This document shows positions 2,060 to 55,193 of a stretch of DNA of 64,000 nucleotides, one piece after another (the first letter of the stretch is position 1; every line of letters begins with the position of its first letter). A program made the position numbers and the translations under genes. The notes beneath the pieces are model-generated. The model searched no databases, was not told the origin of the DNA, and worked only from the letters and a program-made list of their open reading frames with translations. Source of the stretch: Bernardetia sp. ABR2-2B (GTDB lineage: Bacteria; Bacteroidota; Bacteroidia; Cytophagales; Bernardetiaceae); contig NZ_CP147020.1 in NCBI RefSeq assembly GCF_037126435.1, positions 4,539,001 through 4,603,000 on the forward strand, in the 5' to 3' direction.

Positions 2060-3646
2060 TTAGTCTTCACAATCAAGTTCATCGCCCTCTATTGTCCAGC
2101 CATATTCTTTAATAAGTTTTTGACGAGCTTCTTTGGATTTGCAGTATTTCAAACCATTTGCAGTTAATGTAATATTTTTTGGAGCGTTTTTATTATTAGC
2201 CCAACCTATCAAAGTAGCATCATAATTTTCTTTATTCATACCACAATATTCAAAAATATTTATCAGTCCATTTTCTTCATAAGATTGGTCATTATATTTT
2301 ATGTTGCTAATATTCCATTTTCCAATAGGTTGATTGAATACAGCAGCATAATAAAATATTTCACTCATATGTCTTACCTTCTCAGTATTCCATTCTTCAA
2401 TGGATTGATTAAATGCATTAGCAACATAAAACATAGACCTCATATCTGTAACATTTTTAGTATTCCACTTTTCAATGGGTTGGTTGAAAGAGGTAGCATA
2501 ATAAAACATCTCACTCATATCTTTTACCTTTTCTGTATTCCAGTTACCAAGGGATTGATTAAATGAACTGGCAATATAAAACATTGCTTTCATTGTAGTT
2601 ACATTCTGCGTATTCCATTCTCCAATAGGTTGATTGAATGAAGTTGCATTATCAAACATAGACCTCATATTTTCTACATTTTGAGTATTCCAATTTCCAA
2701 TAGATTGATTGAATGAGGTTGCTTTATAAAACATATAACTCATATCAGTTACCTTTGAAGTATTCCATTTTTCTAGGGGTTGATTGAAAGAAGTAGCTTT
2801 ATAAAACATTCCATCCATCTGAATTACATTTTTTGTATTCCACTTTTCAATGGGTTGATTAAAGGAAGTTGTTGCATAAAACAAAGCACTCATATTTATT
2901 ACATTTTGTATATTCCATTTTCCAATGGGTTGGTTAAAAGAAGTCGCTGCATAAAACATACTCCCCATATCAGTTACATTTTCTGTATTCCAATCTCCAA
3001 TTGGTTGGTTGAATAAAGCAGCTCCATTAAACATTTGATTGGTATTAGTTACGTTCTGCATATCCCAATCTCCAATTGGTTGATTGAATGAATCAGCATA
3101 TTTAAACATACCAGACATGTCGGTTATAGTTGAAGTATTCCATTTATTCATAGTGCTATTACCATCAAGTTTATTACAATTATAAAACATATAAGACAGA
3201 TTTTTTACTTTCCTCAAATCAGGACTATCAGTAGCTTTATAGGTAAGATTAATACAACCCATGAAGGCATGGTTCATAGACTGCCATTGAATAGTACCCC
3301 ATTCTTCTAAAGTTTGTAATTTTACCTTTTCAATTTTATTATAATCCATAAAAAAATGAGGAAATTTGCCTATAATAGCTATTTCATAAGTACTACCATT
3401 TTCTAAATTTTTGATAGTATAATTTCCTTTTTGATTTTTGGCAGAACCATTTCCCACACCTCTATTAGTAAGGTTTTTCCAAATTATTTTGTAGTCATAT
3501 TCTAAACTATCATTTGTTGGAATGGTAATTTCAGAATCAGTAGTTTTCCAAGTAGTACGAAAAGCTTGAGAATAAGCAGTATTTGTAGCGAGAAAAAAGA
3601 GAGTCAAAATTGAAAAAGAAAACAAGAACACAAAGACATTTTTCAT
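2060..3646 (-). CDS. Secreted BspA-like (DUF285) repeat surface protein
   Basis: Starts with a clear signal peptide (residues 1-27, ending AYSQA). A short beta-rich N-terminal domain follows (to about residue 115), then 11 tandem 25-residue repeats of the DUF285/BspA type with consensus MxxMFYxATSFNQPIGxWNTxNVTD (residues ~178-455). A C-terminal cap ends in a Lys/Asp-rich tail. DUF285 repeats fold as leucine-rich-repeat-like surface solenoids and are usually linked to adhesion. No T9SS C-terminal sorting domain is visible, so how it stays on or leaves the cell is unclear. The repeats are 75 bp at DNA level (about 2295-3120) and could change copy number by recombination. The exact ligand is unknown. 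Confidence 0.85.
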   Translation of the reverse strand: MKNVFVFLFSFSILTLFFLATNTAYSQAFRTTWKTTDSEITIPTNDSLEYDYKIIWKNLTNRGVGNGSAKNQKGNYTIKNLENGSTYEIAIIGKFPHFFMDYNKIEKVKLQTLEEWGTIQWQSMNHAFMGCINLTYKATDSPDLRKVKNLSYMFYNCNKLDGNSTMNKWNTSTITDMSGMFKYADSFNQPIGDWDMQNVTNTNQMFNGAALFNQPIGDWNTENVTDMGSMFYAATSFNQPIGKWNIQNVINMSALFYATTSFNQPIEKWNTKNVIQMDGMFYKATSFNQPLEKWNTSKVTDMSYMFYKATSFNQSIGNWNTQNVENMRSMFDNATSFNQPIGEWNTQNVTTMKAMFYIASSFNQSLGNWNTEKVKDMSEMFYYATSFNQPIEKWNTKNVTDMRSMFYVANAFNQSIEEWNTEKVRHMSEIFYYAAVFNQPIGKWNISNIKYNDQSYEENGLINIFEYCGMNKENYDATLIGWANNKNAPKNITLTANGLKYCKSKEARQKLIKEYGWTIEGDELDCED

Positions 3647-13683: not shown

Positions 13684-13755
13684 GCTCCGTTCGTCTAGCG
13701 GTTAGGACGCCAGGTTTTCATCCTGGTAGCAGGGGTTCGATTCCCCTACGGAGTA
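13684..13755 (+). tRNA. tRNA-Glu (anticodon TTC), copy 1
   Basis: A 72-nt cloverleaf: acceptor stem GCTCCGT with ACGGAGT, anticodon arm CCAGG-TTTTCAT-CCTGG with anticodon TTC, and T arm AGGGG-TTCGATT-CCCCT. CCA is not encoded. Confidence 0.97.
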
Positions 13756-13864: not shown

Positions 13865-13936
13865 GCTCCGTTCGTCTAGCGGTTAGGACGCCAGGTTTTC
13901 ATCCTGGTAGCAGGGGTTCGATTCCCCTACGGAGTA
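13865..13936 (+). tRNA. tRNA-Glu (anticodon TTC), copy 2
   Basis: Identical in all 72 bases to the copy 109 bp upstream. The pair probably forms one transcript from the promoter at 13599 and ends at the hairpin that follows directly. Confidence 0.97.
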
Positions 13937-38699: not shown

Positions 38700-40022
38700 A
38701 TGCTCTCTCAAACCTCTCAAAATCCACCTTTAGCAGAACGAATGCGTCCTCAAAATTTAGAGGAAGTCATCGGACAAAAACATTTAATCGGAAATAATGG
38801 AGTTTTGGCTCGTGTTATTTCTTCAGGTGCTGTGCCTTCTATGATTCTTTGGGGCGCACCTGGAATTGGCAAAACTACTCTTGCTTTGCTTATTGCGAAG
38901 GCTCTCAAACGTCCTTTTCATACATTGAGTGCTATTTCGGCAGGTGTAAAAGATGTTAGGGAAGTGATTGAAAAGGCAAAAAGACAAACTAGAGCTATTC
39001 TTTTTATTGATGAGATTCATCGTTTTAGCAAATCTCAACAAGATGCACTTTTAGGGGCTGTTGAGCGTGGAACGGTTACGCTTATTGGTGCGACAACTGA
39101 AAATCCATCTTTTGAGATAAATTCGGCTTTGCTTTCTCGTTGTCAAGTTTATATTCTCAATCCTTTATCGGAAGAAGAATTAAAACAACTTTTGCAACAA
39201 GCCATGGAAAGAGATTTCAAGCTCAAAAAGAAAACTATTGAGATAAAATCTTACGAAGCACTTTTCAGAATTTCGGGAGGAGATGCACGAAAATTATTGA
39301 ATCTTTTTGAACTCGTTGTAGAATCTGAACCTAATTTTAATCTTCCAAATCAAGAAGACGAAGAAGGAAATACAATCAAAAATAAGATTGAAGTTACAGA
39401 TGAAAAAGTAATGCAAGTAGCCCAGCAACGAGTTTCTTCGTATGATAAAAGTGGCGAAAATCATTATGATATTGTTTCGGCTCTGATAAAGTCTATTCGT
39501 GGAAGCGACCCTAATGCTGCCATTTATTGGTTGGCAAGAATGATAGAAGGAGGCGAAGATGTCAAGTTTATTGCTCGTCGTTTGGTAATTTCGGCTTCGG
39601 AAGACATAGGAAATGCAAATCCGACAGCCTTAGTTTTGGCAACAACTACATTTCAAGCTGCTATTCAAATTGGTTTTCCAGAGGCTCAAATTGTTTTGGC
39701 TCAATGCGTAACTTATTTAGCTACTTCTCCAAAAAGTAATGCTTCTTATGCAGCCATCAAAACGGCAAGAAAAATTGTACAAGAACAAGGTGATTTACCT
39801 GTTCCGTTGCACCTTCGAAATGCACCTACAAAACTGATGAAACAACAAGGCTATGGAAAAAATTATAACTATTCCCACAATAACGTCAATAACTTTGCAG
39901 CACAAGAGTATTTTCCAAAGGAATTAGCCAATACAAAACTCTACGAACCTTCAAACAATGCAAGAGAAAATGCGATACGACAATTTTTAAAAGAACGTTG
40001 GAAAGAGAAATACGGATATTGA
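38700..40022 (+). CDS. rarA: Replication-associated recombination protein A (MgsA/RarA, WRNIP1-like)
   Basis: A 440-residue AAA+ clamp-loader-like ATPase that works at stalled or collapsed forks. LAERMRPQNLEEVIGQ opens the protein. Walker A GAPGIGKTT, Walker [20 protein letters not shown] (sensor 1) and ISGGDARKLLN follow. The C-terminal MgsA-type tetramerisation region has SYDKSGENHYDIVSALIKSIRGSDP. The stop codon abuts the start of the 36-bp inverted repeat at 40023. Confidence 0.95.
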   Translation: MLSQTSQNPPLAERMRPQNLEEVIGQKHLIGNNGVLARVISSGAVPSMILWGAPGIGKTTLALLIAKALKRPFHTLSAISAGVKDVREVIEKAKRQTRAILFIDEIHRFSKSQQDALLGAVERGTVTLIGATTENPSFEINSALLSRCQVYILNPLSEEELKQLLQQAMERDFKLKKKTIEIKSYEALFRISGGDARKLLNLFELVVESEPNFNLPNQEDEEGNTIKNKIEVTDEKVMQVAQQRVSSYDKSGENHYDIVSALIKSIRGSDPNAAIYWLARMIEGGEDVKFIARRLVISASEDIGNANPTALVLATTTFQAAIQIGFPEAQIVLAQCVTYLATSPKSNASYAAIKTARKIVQEQGDLPVPLHLRNAPTKLMKQQGYGKNYNYSHNNVNNFAAQEYFPKELANTKLYEPSNNARENAIRQFLKERWKEKYGY

Positions 40023-40058
40023 CAGTTACCAGTAAATAGTAACCAGTTATCAGTTAAT
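40023..40058 (+). repeat. 36-bp inverted repeat, left arm
   Basis: Starts at the base after the rarA stop. Its sequence (CAGTTACCAGTAAATAG...) matches the reverse complement of 40531-40566 at 32 of 36 bases. It holds four short related CAGTTA-type words. Confidence 0.8.
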
Positions 40059-40069
40059 TTCAATGACAC

Positions 40070-40255
40070 TTATTTATTTACTTTGTTAATAAATCGAATT
40101 GTAATTTCTCTAGGTTTTTCTTCTTTCTCCTTGGTTTCTGTTTCTTCTTTAGAAATAGATTTTTGATTAATATCTTCTTCGATATTAGTTTTTTTCTCTG
40201 TAATAGGAGACAAAGCCTCATCTAAAAGCTTGTCTAGTTCGTTAATAGTCATCAC
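40070..40255 (-). CDS. Small charged protein A inside inverted-repeat cassette
   Basis: 61 residues. The N-terminus INELDKLLDEALS is an amphipathic helix. The middle is very rich in Lys/Glu/Thr. The end EEKPREITIRFINK is shared with protein B, 25 bp upstream on the same strand. I do not recognise the family. The matched N- and C-terminal motifs in two copies argue that both are real genes. Confidence 0.55.
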   Translation of the reverse strand: MMTINELDKLLDEALSPITEKKTNIEEDINQKSISKEETETKEKEEKPREITIRFINKVNK

Positions 40256-40280
40256 TTGATTTGTAAATAGTGAATCTAAT

Positions 40281-40463
40281 TTATTTTTTTATGAATCTGA
40301 CTGTAATTTCTCTAGGTTTTTCTTCTGTTTTATTCTTTTCGTTTTTTGAGTTTTGCTCAGAGTTTATTTGTTTTTCGGTATCTCTAAGCTGATTTTCCAC
40401 TAAAGAGCTAAATCTGTCATCAGACAACAGCTTGTCTATTTCTTCCATAGTAAGATAATTCAT
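40281..40463 (-). CDS. Small charged protein B inside inverted-repeat cassette
   Basis: 60 residues. The N-terminus MEEIDKLLSDDRF resembles the INELDKLLDEA helix of protein A, and the C-terminus EEKPREITVRFIKK is nearly identical. The middle differs and is rich in Asn/Glu/Lys. Probably the first gene of a two-gene unit; the region between its start and the repeat arm is ~70 bp of AT-rich DNA. Function unknown. Confidence 0.55.
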   Translation of the reverse strand: MNYLTMEEIDKLLSDDRFSSLVENQLRDTEKQINSEQNSKNEKNKTEEKPREITVRFIKK

Positions 40464-40530
40464 TTCATTTGTATTTTATTAAAAATAAACAAAAGTAATC
40501 AAAACAGAAAATTCAAAATTGAAATTTCTC

Positions 40531-40566
40531 ATTAACTGGTAACTGATTACTACTTACTGATAACTG
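40531..40566 (-). repeat. 36-bp inverted repeat, right arm
   Basis: Reverse-complement partner of 40023-40058 (32 of 36). It ends 5 bp before the stop codon of the convergent VLRF1-like gene, so the 544-bp cassette fits exactly between two convergent genes. Confidence 0.8.
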
Positions 40567-40571
40567 AAATA

Positions 40572-41303
40572 CTACCATTCAATCACATCTCCCAAATTAT
40601 CCAAGAAAGGCAAATCATCTTTGTAAGTAGTTAGTTTTCCTTGATTAATATACGTATTTATACGCTGTAATTCTTCAAAGTTGGGAGAGTGAACTGTTAC
40701 AGGAATCTTACGAAGACGAGCATCATCTTTTTGAAAAGGAGCTTCTTCTTTAGAAGTATAAAATAAATGCCACAAATCTGTTGAGCCACTCCAACCAATC
40801 CGTTCGATTTTATCAAAAATATTAGATTGCTTGTGCCACTCTTTTAGTTTTAAGTTGATTTGTTCGAAAAAATGAATTGTATTTTGAAGTCTAATACGAG
40901 AACCCAAACGAGACTTTCCTTTAGAGTTTAAATGTTTTATTTGTGATTTCCCTTGCTTCTTTCTGACCATATATGCTGTAATCGCTTTGTGATAAACAAG
41001 CTCTCCTTCTTCAAAATAACCTAAAGAAGCATACCCAGCTTGTATCAGAATGAGTAAATATGGTTTTGGTAAAAAAGTAATTTTGTCAGAATAATTTGAA
41101 AGACAAAGTGATTTTTCTTCATCTTCTCTTTTTGGAAGAGTAGGAAAAGTAATTGGAGTGCGAAAGTCAAGAATTTTTTCTCCTTCTTGATTTGTTCCAT
41201 ACAAAGTCCCTTTCTTTGTGTCAGAATCCCAAAAAATAGACTCCATAGAATCATCTAAGGAAGCTAATCGTTCTATTAAATCTATTGAATCTGAATAATC
41301 CAT
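40572..41303 (-). CDS. Vms1-like release factor (VLRF1) family protein
   Basis: A 243-residue cytoplasmic protein. AITAYMVRKKQGKSQIKHL (108-124) carries the Q-G-x-x-Q form of the release-factor loop (Gln117, Gly118, Gln121), then SKGKSRLGSRIRLQNTIHFFEQI, with the basic and aromatic pattern known in the Vms1/ANKZF1 peptidyl-tRNA hydrolases. Those free nascent chains from stalled ribosomes. The preceding ~105 residues (ITFLPKPYLLILIQAGYASLGYFEEGELV in part) fit the first strands of the eRF1-like core. Recognition is by motif only. It is convergent with rarA. Confidence 0.7.
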   Translation of the reverse strand: MDYSDSIDLIERLASLDDSMESIFWDSDTKKGTLYGTNQEGEKILDFRTPITFPTLPKREDEEKSLCLSNYSDKITFLPKPYLLILIQAGYASLGYFEEGELVYHKAITAYMVRKKQGKSQIKHLNSKGKSRLGSRIRLQNTIHFFEQINLKLKEWHKQSNIFDKIERIGWSGSTDLWHLFYTSKEEAPFQKDDARLRKIPVTVHSPNFEELQRINTYINQGKLTTYKDDLPFLDNLGDVIEW

Positions 41304-54830: not shown

Positions 54831-54852
54831 ACGATAAAATGGCAACATTTTT

Positions 54853-54887
54853 AACTTTGACAGTCCTTTCAGAAGGCTTCAATAGTT
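54853..54887 (+). repeat. REP-B palindromic element, copy 1
   Basis: AACTTTGACAGTCCTTTC...GAAGGCTTCAATAGTT, an imperfect palindrome; this copy has one mutated arm (GGCTTCAA for GGCTGTCAA). Confidence 0.8.
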
Positions 54888-54950
54888 AGAAATATGTACA
54901 ATATAGAAATACAAGCAACTAAGTTTTCTTGTAACTTTGAAAAAACGAGC

Positions 54951-55002
54951 AACTATTGTCAGAGTTATTTTGGATTACCAAAACAACTACTGACAAAGTT
55001 TT
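54951..55002 (+). repeat. REP-A palindromic element, copy 4
   Basis: AACTATTGTCAGAGTT, inner stem TTTTGG-ATTA-CCAAAA, then AACTACTGACAAAGTTTT. Inner pairs are T-A/T-A where copy 5 has C-G. Confidence 0.9.
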
Positions 55003-55007
55003 CTCAT

Positions 55008-55043
55008 AACTTTGACAGTCCTTTCACAAGGCTGTCAATAGTT
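55008..55043 (+). repeat. REP-B palindromic element, copy 2
   Basis: AACTTTGACAGTCCTT-TCAC-AAGGCTGTCAATAGTT, arms complementary apart from two bulges. Confidence 0.85.
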
Positions 55044-55106
55044 AGAAATACGCACAATATAGAAATACAAGCAACTAAGTTTTCTTGTAACTCTGAAAAG
55101 ACGAGC

Positions 55107-55157
55107 AACTATTGTCAGAGTTATTTCGGATTACCGAAAAACTACTGACAAAGTTTT
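55107..55157 (+). repeat. REP-A palindromic element, copy 5
   Basis: AACTATTGTCAGAGTT, inner stem TTTCGG-ATTA-CCGAAA, then AACTACTGACAAAGTTTT. The paired change T-A to C-G relative to copy 4 keeps the stem. Confidence 0.9.
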
Positions 55158-55162
55158 CTCAT

Positions 55163-55193
55163 AACTTTGACAGTCCTTTCACAAGGCTGTCAA
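55163..55193 (+). repeat. REP-B palindromic element, copy 3
   Basis: AACTTTGACAGTCCTT-TCAC-AAGGCTGTCAAA, slightly truncated at the right arm. It ends 25 bp before the RAYT start codon. Confidence 0.8.

Follow-up and report, generated by a model that had tools for sequence, protein, structure and literature searches.

Short heptamer tandem arrays scattered between genes are found in cyanobacteria, as STRR heptamers and small dispersed repeats. The arrays described below are likewise short, intergenic and heptameric, a likeness at the level of this general description. Inverted ends around a short interior recall MITEs and other non-autonomous transposons; here, in contrast, no target duplication was seen, no repeated interior was found, and the ends stay with the neighbour genes.

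TAACTGA intergenic direct repeats were described by MacGregor in 2015, with a proposed role in RNA-level control upstream of start codons (PMC4679880). In Flexibacter litoralis, 14 TAACTGA sets were reported, of which 12 precede a start codon in forward orientation and one follows a stop codon in reverse orientation (PMC4679880); as far as the accessible part of that paper goes, these orientations agree with the inward polarity that we observed in the genome analyzed here. The same part of the paper neither states a polarity rule that covers both starts and stops nor describes inverted pairs flanking genes or a link to IVP genes, and we found in it no mention of S23 or 'intervening'. The unit of our arrays, CAGTTAY (on the reverse strand TAACTGA with drift), is also intergenic and adjoins gene boundaries. 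The arms of our locus differ in being degenerate, in following stop codons and in facing each other.

A third related system is formed by 23S rRNA intervening sequences with an S23/IVP ORF (PF05635). In the Coxiella IVS, terminal inverted repeats surround a small gene and heptameric repeats lie beside the S23p ORF, according to the accessible part of its description (PMC4990558). Our locus resembles it in having terminal inverted repeats and heptamers around small genes, and differs in that it holds no IVP gene and lies outside an rRNA gene.

Structure of the rarA/bVLRF1 gap

We analyzed a window of 64,000 nucleotides, the whole stretch of DNA under study, from the genome of Bernardetia sp. 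ABR2-2B (G000), together with relatives of the genus (G001-G006). A 544-bp segment (40023-40566) lies in the gap between the convergent genes rarA and bVLRF1 (Table 1). The pair of 36-bp inverted arms reported in the original prediction was confirmed, with 32 of 36 positions matching. The best local inverted score of the gap was 29, while 1000 dinucleotide shuffles reached a maximum of 23. When the 35 intergenic gaps of at least 70 bp in the window were surveyed, this was the only one whose ends matched in inverted orientation above the 99% level of cross pairings (score 28; runner-up 12). The arms had been said to bound the gap exactly. This held on the left, where the arm starts on the base after the rarA stop, and was slightly too strong on the right, because that arm ends 5 bp before the bVLRF1 stop.

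The arm sequence has a period of 7 (CAGTTAC CAGTAAA TAGTAAC CAGTTAT CAGTTAA), a feature absent from the original prediction, and because this period is present in each arm, we regard both as degenerate heptamer tandem arrays. Two perfect adjacent TAACTGA units were found in neither arm, both being period-7 arrays of CAGTTAY variants.

Table 1. Features of the gap and its flanking genes, in window coordinates
Feature	Position	Strand	Description
rarA/mgsA	38700..40022	+	Stop abutted by the left arm
Left arm	40023..40058	+	About five degenerate CAGTTAY units, first base directly after the rarA stop; inner tail TTAATTTCAAT
Small ORF 2	40070..40252	-	60 aa from ATG (40255 from GTG in the ORF list); tandem paralogue, MTINELDKLL ... 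PREITIRFINKVNK
Small ORF 1	40281..40463	-	60 aa; N-terminal helix LTMEEIDKLL, charged linker, C-terminal PREITVRFIKK
ORF 1 upstream region	40464..40530	-	Common to an ORF of G005 and, without ORF, to the bVLRF1 end in G001
Right arm	40531..40566	-	About five degenerate CAGTTAY units, 5 bp past the bVLRF1 stop, pointing into the gap
bVLRF1 (Bacteroidetes VLRF1 release factor)	40572..41303	-	PF18826, E 2.9e-32; right arm past its stop

Elsewhere in the window, eleven 75-bp tandem units (2311-3145) probably belong to a repeat-protein gene, and two tandem tRNA genes with equal scores are present at 13684-13755 and 13865-13936.

A small family of motif-bearing ORFs

As predicted, the gap contains two small ORFs with common terminal motifs, E-[LI]-D-K-L-L near the N terminus and EEKPREIT-x-RFI-x-K at the C terminus. 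They are tandem paralogues, arranged as direct repeats with a step of 202 bp, and are 50% identical. Relatives were found only in G000 and G005, both in a protein search of 39 genomes and, at E <0.001, in a profile search of 291 genomes of the order. At E <=0.5 the same profile search lists 28 of the 291 genomes; beyond G000 and G005, one weak match (G101) was followed and the remainder was taken as chance. Two weak profile matches within G000 and G005 turned out to be small ORFs with the family tail: a 57-aa ORF in G000 (E 0.032), in which the tail is internal, with an acidic stretch after it, and a 94-aa ORF in G005 (E 0.003). With these, the family comprises five ORFs in two genomes with the tail EI[TQ][VI]RFI[KN]K, two of the five having little in common beyond the motif.

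A degenerate DNA pattern of the tail, searched in 29 genomes with at most one mismatch, gave 10 matches, of which five were the family ORFs (reversed control, 3); the exact matches were four, all family ORFs. A profile built from the five tails recovered all five in 12 genomes at E <1e-7, as it must by construction; the next match, at E 0.03, was a possible decayed relative of the motif ORFs at G004:C121 3692-3751, where 33 codons end in KNIQIRFIKK and have no start codon.

The reading frame and the tail are kept in independent loci, and the substitution pattern points to purifying selection. Among the three full-length ORFs, pS was 0.58-0.81 and pN 0.30-0.33, and in their conserved ends 0.44-0.73 and 0.13-0.18, respectively; for the tail of all five ORFs (ten pairs), pS was 0.59 and pN 0.10. 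The ORFs are therefore conserved, though only in two genomes, and the alternative proposal of a small-protein family with a common ending motif was borne out. Judged from these sequences, the small ORFs are very likely genuine coding genes of a narrow, lineage-restricted protein family.

No family for the small ORFs was found above the curated cut-off in Pfam, NCBIfam or PHROGs, the best weak match being PHROG 3017 (E 0.0032). Alignment searches of a genome-contig and a viral-contig collection returned no relatives; for the genome contigs this silence is weak evidence, because the search missed the two G005 loci present in that collection. The motif pattern itself matched 27 stretches in the genome contigs, among them the two G005 loci, where it is C-terminal in plausible small genes; the other 25 were judged by eye to be chance or other proteins. 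Both matches in the viral contigs were chance-like.

An AlphaFold model from three sequences, only moderately confident (mean pLDDT 69.8), predicted a helix at the N terminus, a middle part of uncertain helical structure and a tail in extended form. The gene between the arrays duplicated in tandem, and the paralogue and the G005 relative have chiefly kept the short N-terminal helix and the strand-like C-terminal tail around a free linker. The tail may be a short linear motif docking on one common partner, with the linker as a spacer.

The upstream region of ORF 1 was similar to that of the G005 ORF (score 77; maximum of 200 shuffles, 44.5) and to the bVLRF1 end in G001 (score 67; maximum of 1000 shuffles, 52). 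Since the region persists in G001 without the ORF, the ORF may have been lost there.

In the window, a 156-bp tandem repeat with CTATTGTCAGAGTTA and GACAGTCCTTT motifs was noticed at 54852-55193, and a similar sequence adjoins the 57-aa motif ORF (L081, approximately 2210-2300).

Dispersal and polarity of the heptamer arrays

The original prediction proposed a search of the genome for the 36-bp arm. With the array pattern and at most two mismatches, G000 gave 90 matches at 66 places, and the reversed pattern gave none. A BLAST search of the gap against its own genome, in which 40 of 256 first-look candidates were scored, yielded 56 matches, consisting of the gap itself and of arms with a few tens of bases beside them.

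The flanks of all 66 arrays were analyzed, with genes defined by a simple rule as ORFs of at least 80 aa from the first ATG. The arrays were outside genes in 64 cases. In 52 of these, no more than 15 bp separated the outer end (the CAGTTA side) from a start or stop codon, nine of the 52 arrays overlapping the stop codon; the inner end was that close in only 4. The arrays are thus intergenic and placed next to gene boundaries, as the TAACTGA repeats are. The median distance to a gene boundary was 4 bp for the outer end and 101.5 bp for the inner end, and the outer end was the nearer one in 56 arrays and the farther one in 8. Within 25 bp, the boundary was a stop in 28 cases and a start in 25. 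Arrays therefore tend to begin at a gene edge, whether start or stop, and to point into the gap. The inner tail ATTTC followed 15 of the 66 arrays, compared with 8 of 264 control stretches.

An inverted partner (score at least 16, within 900 bp) was found on the inner side of 10 of the 66 arrays and on the outer side of none; direct partners numbered 4 inner and 3 outer. There were six inverted pairs among the 66 arrays, in two of which the second arm fell below the pattern threshold. Paired arms are not specially matched to each other, because arrays matched their own inner flank at score 16 or more in 10 of 66 cases (15%), close to the 13.6% of cross pairings with other arrays. At the opposite end of the gap, an array of a different heptamer was found for 1 of the 18 unpaired arrays with a long enough gap. 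Three further CAGTTAY inverted pairs were read in G000, so that the contents of four of the six are known, including the rarA/bVLRF1 pair: of the three, one holds an IVP gene, one a 138-aa ORF resembling a membrane protein, and one no ORF.

Samples of the genomes gave 10 heptamer arrays for G000 (400 kb; other periods gave 0 or 1), 4 for G001 (200 kb) and none for G007 (120 kb), G008 (280 kb) and G013 (200 kb). Array sides could not be distinguished as synteny breakpoints: at 12 sites compared with G002 and G001, the neighbour was kept on the array side in 11 of 24 cases, compared with 13 of 24 on the gene's opposite side, and ordinary neighbour pairs were kept in 67 of 100 under a nearly equal criterion.

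Arrays at orthologous gene ends

Of the 52 boundary-hugging sites, 13 were compared with G006, G002 and G001, and 12 of them gave the 30 orthologous boundaries that were examined, some further matches having no retrievable locus. At least two units were present at 24 of the 30 and at least three at 16, against 3 and 0 of 90 control stretches. At site 237613, G000 has ten units and its relatives one or two. The sequence beyond the array is often unlike between relatives at the same gene end.

In G000, G006, G001, G003 and G005, at least two CAGTTAY units come after the bVLRF1 stop; G004 has a single unit there, and G002 has TTAGTGA heptamers instead. The next gene, on the other hand, is rarA in G000, G002 and G006 (across a contig break), a CRP-like gene in G001, and an SDR gene in G003, G004 and G005, and small ORFs are beside bVLRF1 only in G000 among the genus genomes compared. 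The rarA stop, covered in six genomes (in G003, rarA is cut by the contig end), carries CAGTTAY in G000, G006 and G005 (two units). In G002 the array there is of GAATTAC heptamers, and G001 and G004 have no array at this stop.

Arms and ORFs are found apart. In G006, both arms are present in the same positions, and the sequence between them is different and free of the ORFs; its contigs break inside the right array, and both contig ends show that array. G002 has the same gene pair without the ORFs and without CAGTTAY arms. In G005, one ORF adjoins rarA with a two-unit left array and different heptamers on the right. The two further motif ORFs, of G000 and G005, have, by eye, no arms around them. 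Empty sites in relatives, which the original prediction proposed to look for, are thus present in G002 and G006 as far as the ORFs are concerned, but G006 keeps both arms.

The same gene end can carry different heptamers in different species: where G000 has CAGTTAY, GAATTAC is found at the G002 rarA end, TTAGTGA at the G002 bVLRF1 end and GGAATTA at the G005 pyrB end. An exchange of downstream neighbours between pyrB and bVLRF1 was also observed between G000 and G005, with junctions at heptamer arrays. In G000, an SDR gene comes next after pyrB (C1:1873992), whose end carries CAGTTAY, and the ORFs and rarA lie opposite bVLRF1. In G005 (C301, C279), the SDR gene is instead the downstream neighbour of bVLRF1, and the ORF and rarA lie opposite pyrB, whose end carries GGAATTA/GGAAATG heptamers.

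IVP genes between inverted heptamer arms

G000 contains five PF05635 genes (23S rRNA IVP, S23; four-helix bundle), at C1 85003, 566433, 861429, 2229086 and 2922496, one of which sits between CAGTTAY arms. A PF05635 search of 13 genomes of the order gave 44 matches in 11 genomes, and 31 loci (L200-L230), some cut by contig ends or with internal stop codons, were tested for the best inverted match between their 250-bp flanks, with 411 pseudo-centres in the same loci as controls. Inverted arms scoring at least 16 were found at 28 of the 31 (four of five in G000) and at 6 of the 411 controls; at a score of at least 18, the counts were 25 and 0. Clear period 7 in the arms was seen at 20 loci and in no control. 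The 31 loci are not independent, because several are orthologous. By eye, the arm unit varies between loci and is largely kept within a locus. Period 8 instead of 7 was seen in the IVP arms at L221 (G013) and L215 (G005).

The arrangement was also present on plasmids, where 12 of 27 matching records (L358-L369) were analyzed: arms scored at least 16 at 10 of 12 loci and in 0 of 33 controls. The loci with arms span Cyanobacteriota, Spirochaetota and another Bernardetia (Bacteroidota); the two misses were a Chloroflexota plasmid (score 15, period 7 present) and a Pseudanabaena plasmid (score 12). On plasmids of Nostoc sp. TCL26-01 (L360) and Anabaena cylindrica (L361), the IVP gene with its inverted arms lies between cas2 and cas1; these arms are A-rich and their period is less clear-cut. 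We found no description of IVP genes between heptamer arms in the literature searched, which was covered mostly at listing level and in which subscription journals were mostly not included.

Since IVP genes are mostly bounded by inverted, often heptameric arms, the dispersed arrays may be ends or scars of IVP cassettes. The tails of the arrays matched IVP cassette flanks at score 16 or more in 21 of 64 cases, and stretches lying further in did so in 8 of 64, but a reversed library gave 18 of 64, so that the tails in general are not distinguishable from that control. Six tails were tested against 200 shuffles each; the one exception was the tail of array 237613, which no shuffle equalled but which had been chosen because it was the best of 64. 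Array density does not simply follow the presence of IVP genes, because G007 and G013 have such genes yet no arrays in the samples.

Origin of the inverted arms

We consider it likely that the locus is a composite of two gene-end heptamer arrays facing each other, and not a cassette. One array would have been inherited with the 3' end of rarA and the other with the 3' end of bVLRF1. The arrays face each other because the two genes converge and the direction of such arrays is nearly always inward, away from the gene boundary, and two inward-pointing arrays make an inverted repeat. The sequences themselves show that the arrays are dispersed, hug gene boundaries with a fixed polarity, are conserved there and can change in unit number and unit type at one and the same gene end; they also show arms without ORFs and ORFs without these arms. 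The arrays may expand and shrink by slippage, and they may have spread to gene ends from IVP (S23) cassettes, which have the same kind of inverted heptamer arms in the genus. Three observations are against a composite: both arms are of the same heptamer type and 32 of 36 positions alike, as in IVP cassettes; six inverted pairs in 66 arrays are more than independent decoration of gene ends would give (by a rough estimate, below one); and the rarA end carries an array in only three of six genomes.

For the arms, two readings remain, gene-end arrays facing by chance or IVP cassette scars. The second can be put more broadly: the heptamer arrays of cyanobacteria, Beggiatoaceae and some Bacteroidetes would be terminal arms or scars of IVP/S23 cassettes, and both arms at rarA/bVLRF1 would be such scars. 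Each IVP lineage would have its own heptamer and install inverted arms abutting the neighbour genes; loss of the interior would leave single inward-pointing arrays at gene ends, which could later be overwritten by another heptamer. The polarity, the heptamer types shared in the genus and the tail of array 237613 (best of 64) speak for it. Against it are the array tails, which are about as frequent a match as the reversed library, and the right-arm tail of our locus, which does not exceed shuffles. We consider this broad form less likely than not, and the connection of the arrays to IVP cassettes is plausible but unproven.

It seems rather doubtful that the arrays are RNA-level control sites whose pairing only reflects a role at each of the two 3' ends, such as a common hairpin that ends or protects the convergent transcripts. 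In the predicted RNA fold of the gap, the arms do pair with each other (z -5.9). The gap contains no recognizable intrinsic terminator-like site, although chance alone would give only 0.2, and the 25 arrays within 25 bp before start codons recall what MacGregor reported for other genomes, in the accessible part of that paper (PMC4679880). However, arrays hug stops as often as starts and in the opposite sense relative to the gene, so that a single RNA signal fails to explain the polarity, and fewer than two units are present at 6 of the 30 orthologous gene ends.

Derivation of this very segment from an IVP (S23, four-helix-bundle) cassette, in which the heptamer arms were kept while the IVP gene disappeared or gave way to the small ORFs, is unlikely. 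It would fit the inverted, mostly period-7 arms of the IVP loci of the order, the G000 IVP cassette with the same CAGTTAY arms, and the IVP gene in one of the three other inverted pairs read; the inverted heptamer-array arms of an IVP/S23 locus are indeed present here. But neither ORF matches PF05635, and the five IVP genes of G000 lie elsewhere. CAGTTAY also follows bVLRF1 in five other genomes of the genus (in four with at least two units), where the small ORFs are absent beside it, and no IVP gene is among the neighbours listed for G001, G002 and G005. The ORF upstream region, which is the tail of the right arm, was not above shuffles in comparison with IVP cassette flanks (22 of 200 as good), and the lack of special matching between paired arms is a further point against such a derivation.

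The original prediction suggested a non-autonomous mobile element whose arms are terminal inverted repeats mobilized with the two ORFs as cargo; the likeness of the arms, the enclosed ORFs and the absence of the ORFs from the same gene pair in G002 and G006 agree with it, but this reading is already contradicted and highly improbable, as the arms are copies of an abundant extragenic repeat (66 places) that is conserved at gene ends and comes apart from the ORFs in G006, G005, G001 and G003, genome matches outside the gap consist of arms with a few tens of bases only (among the 40 of 256 candidates scored), and no target-site duplication is visible at the outer flanks of either arm (ATTGA before the left, AAATA after the right). 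A MITE-like transposon was rejected as a candidate for the same locus: its ends are not element-specific but mostly single at gene ends, with and without an interior, the interior has no further copies among the scored candidates, and the flanks are unlike.

Significance

If the locus is a composite, it serves as a warning that inverted repeats around genes can come from two gene-end repeats of fixed polarity, without a mobile element. Because the polarity rule is identical at starts and stops, TAACTGA-type repeats need to be explained anew. Where heptamer repeats come from and what the S23 protein does are old puzzles, and the association, across three phyla, of inverted heptamer arms with IVP genes offers one hypothesis for both.
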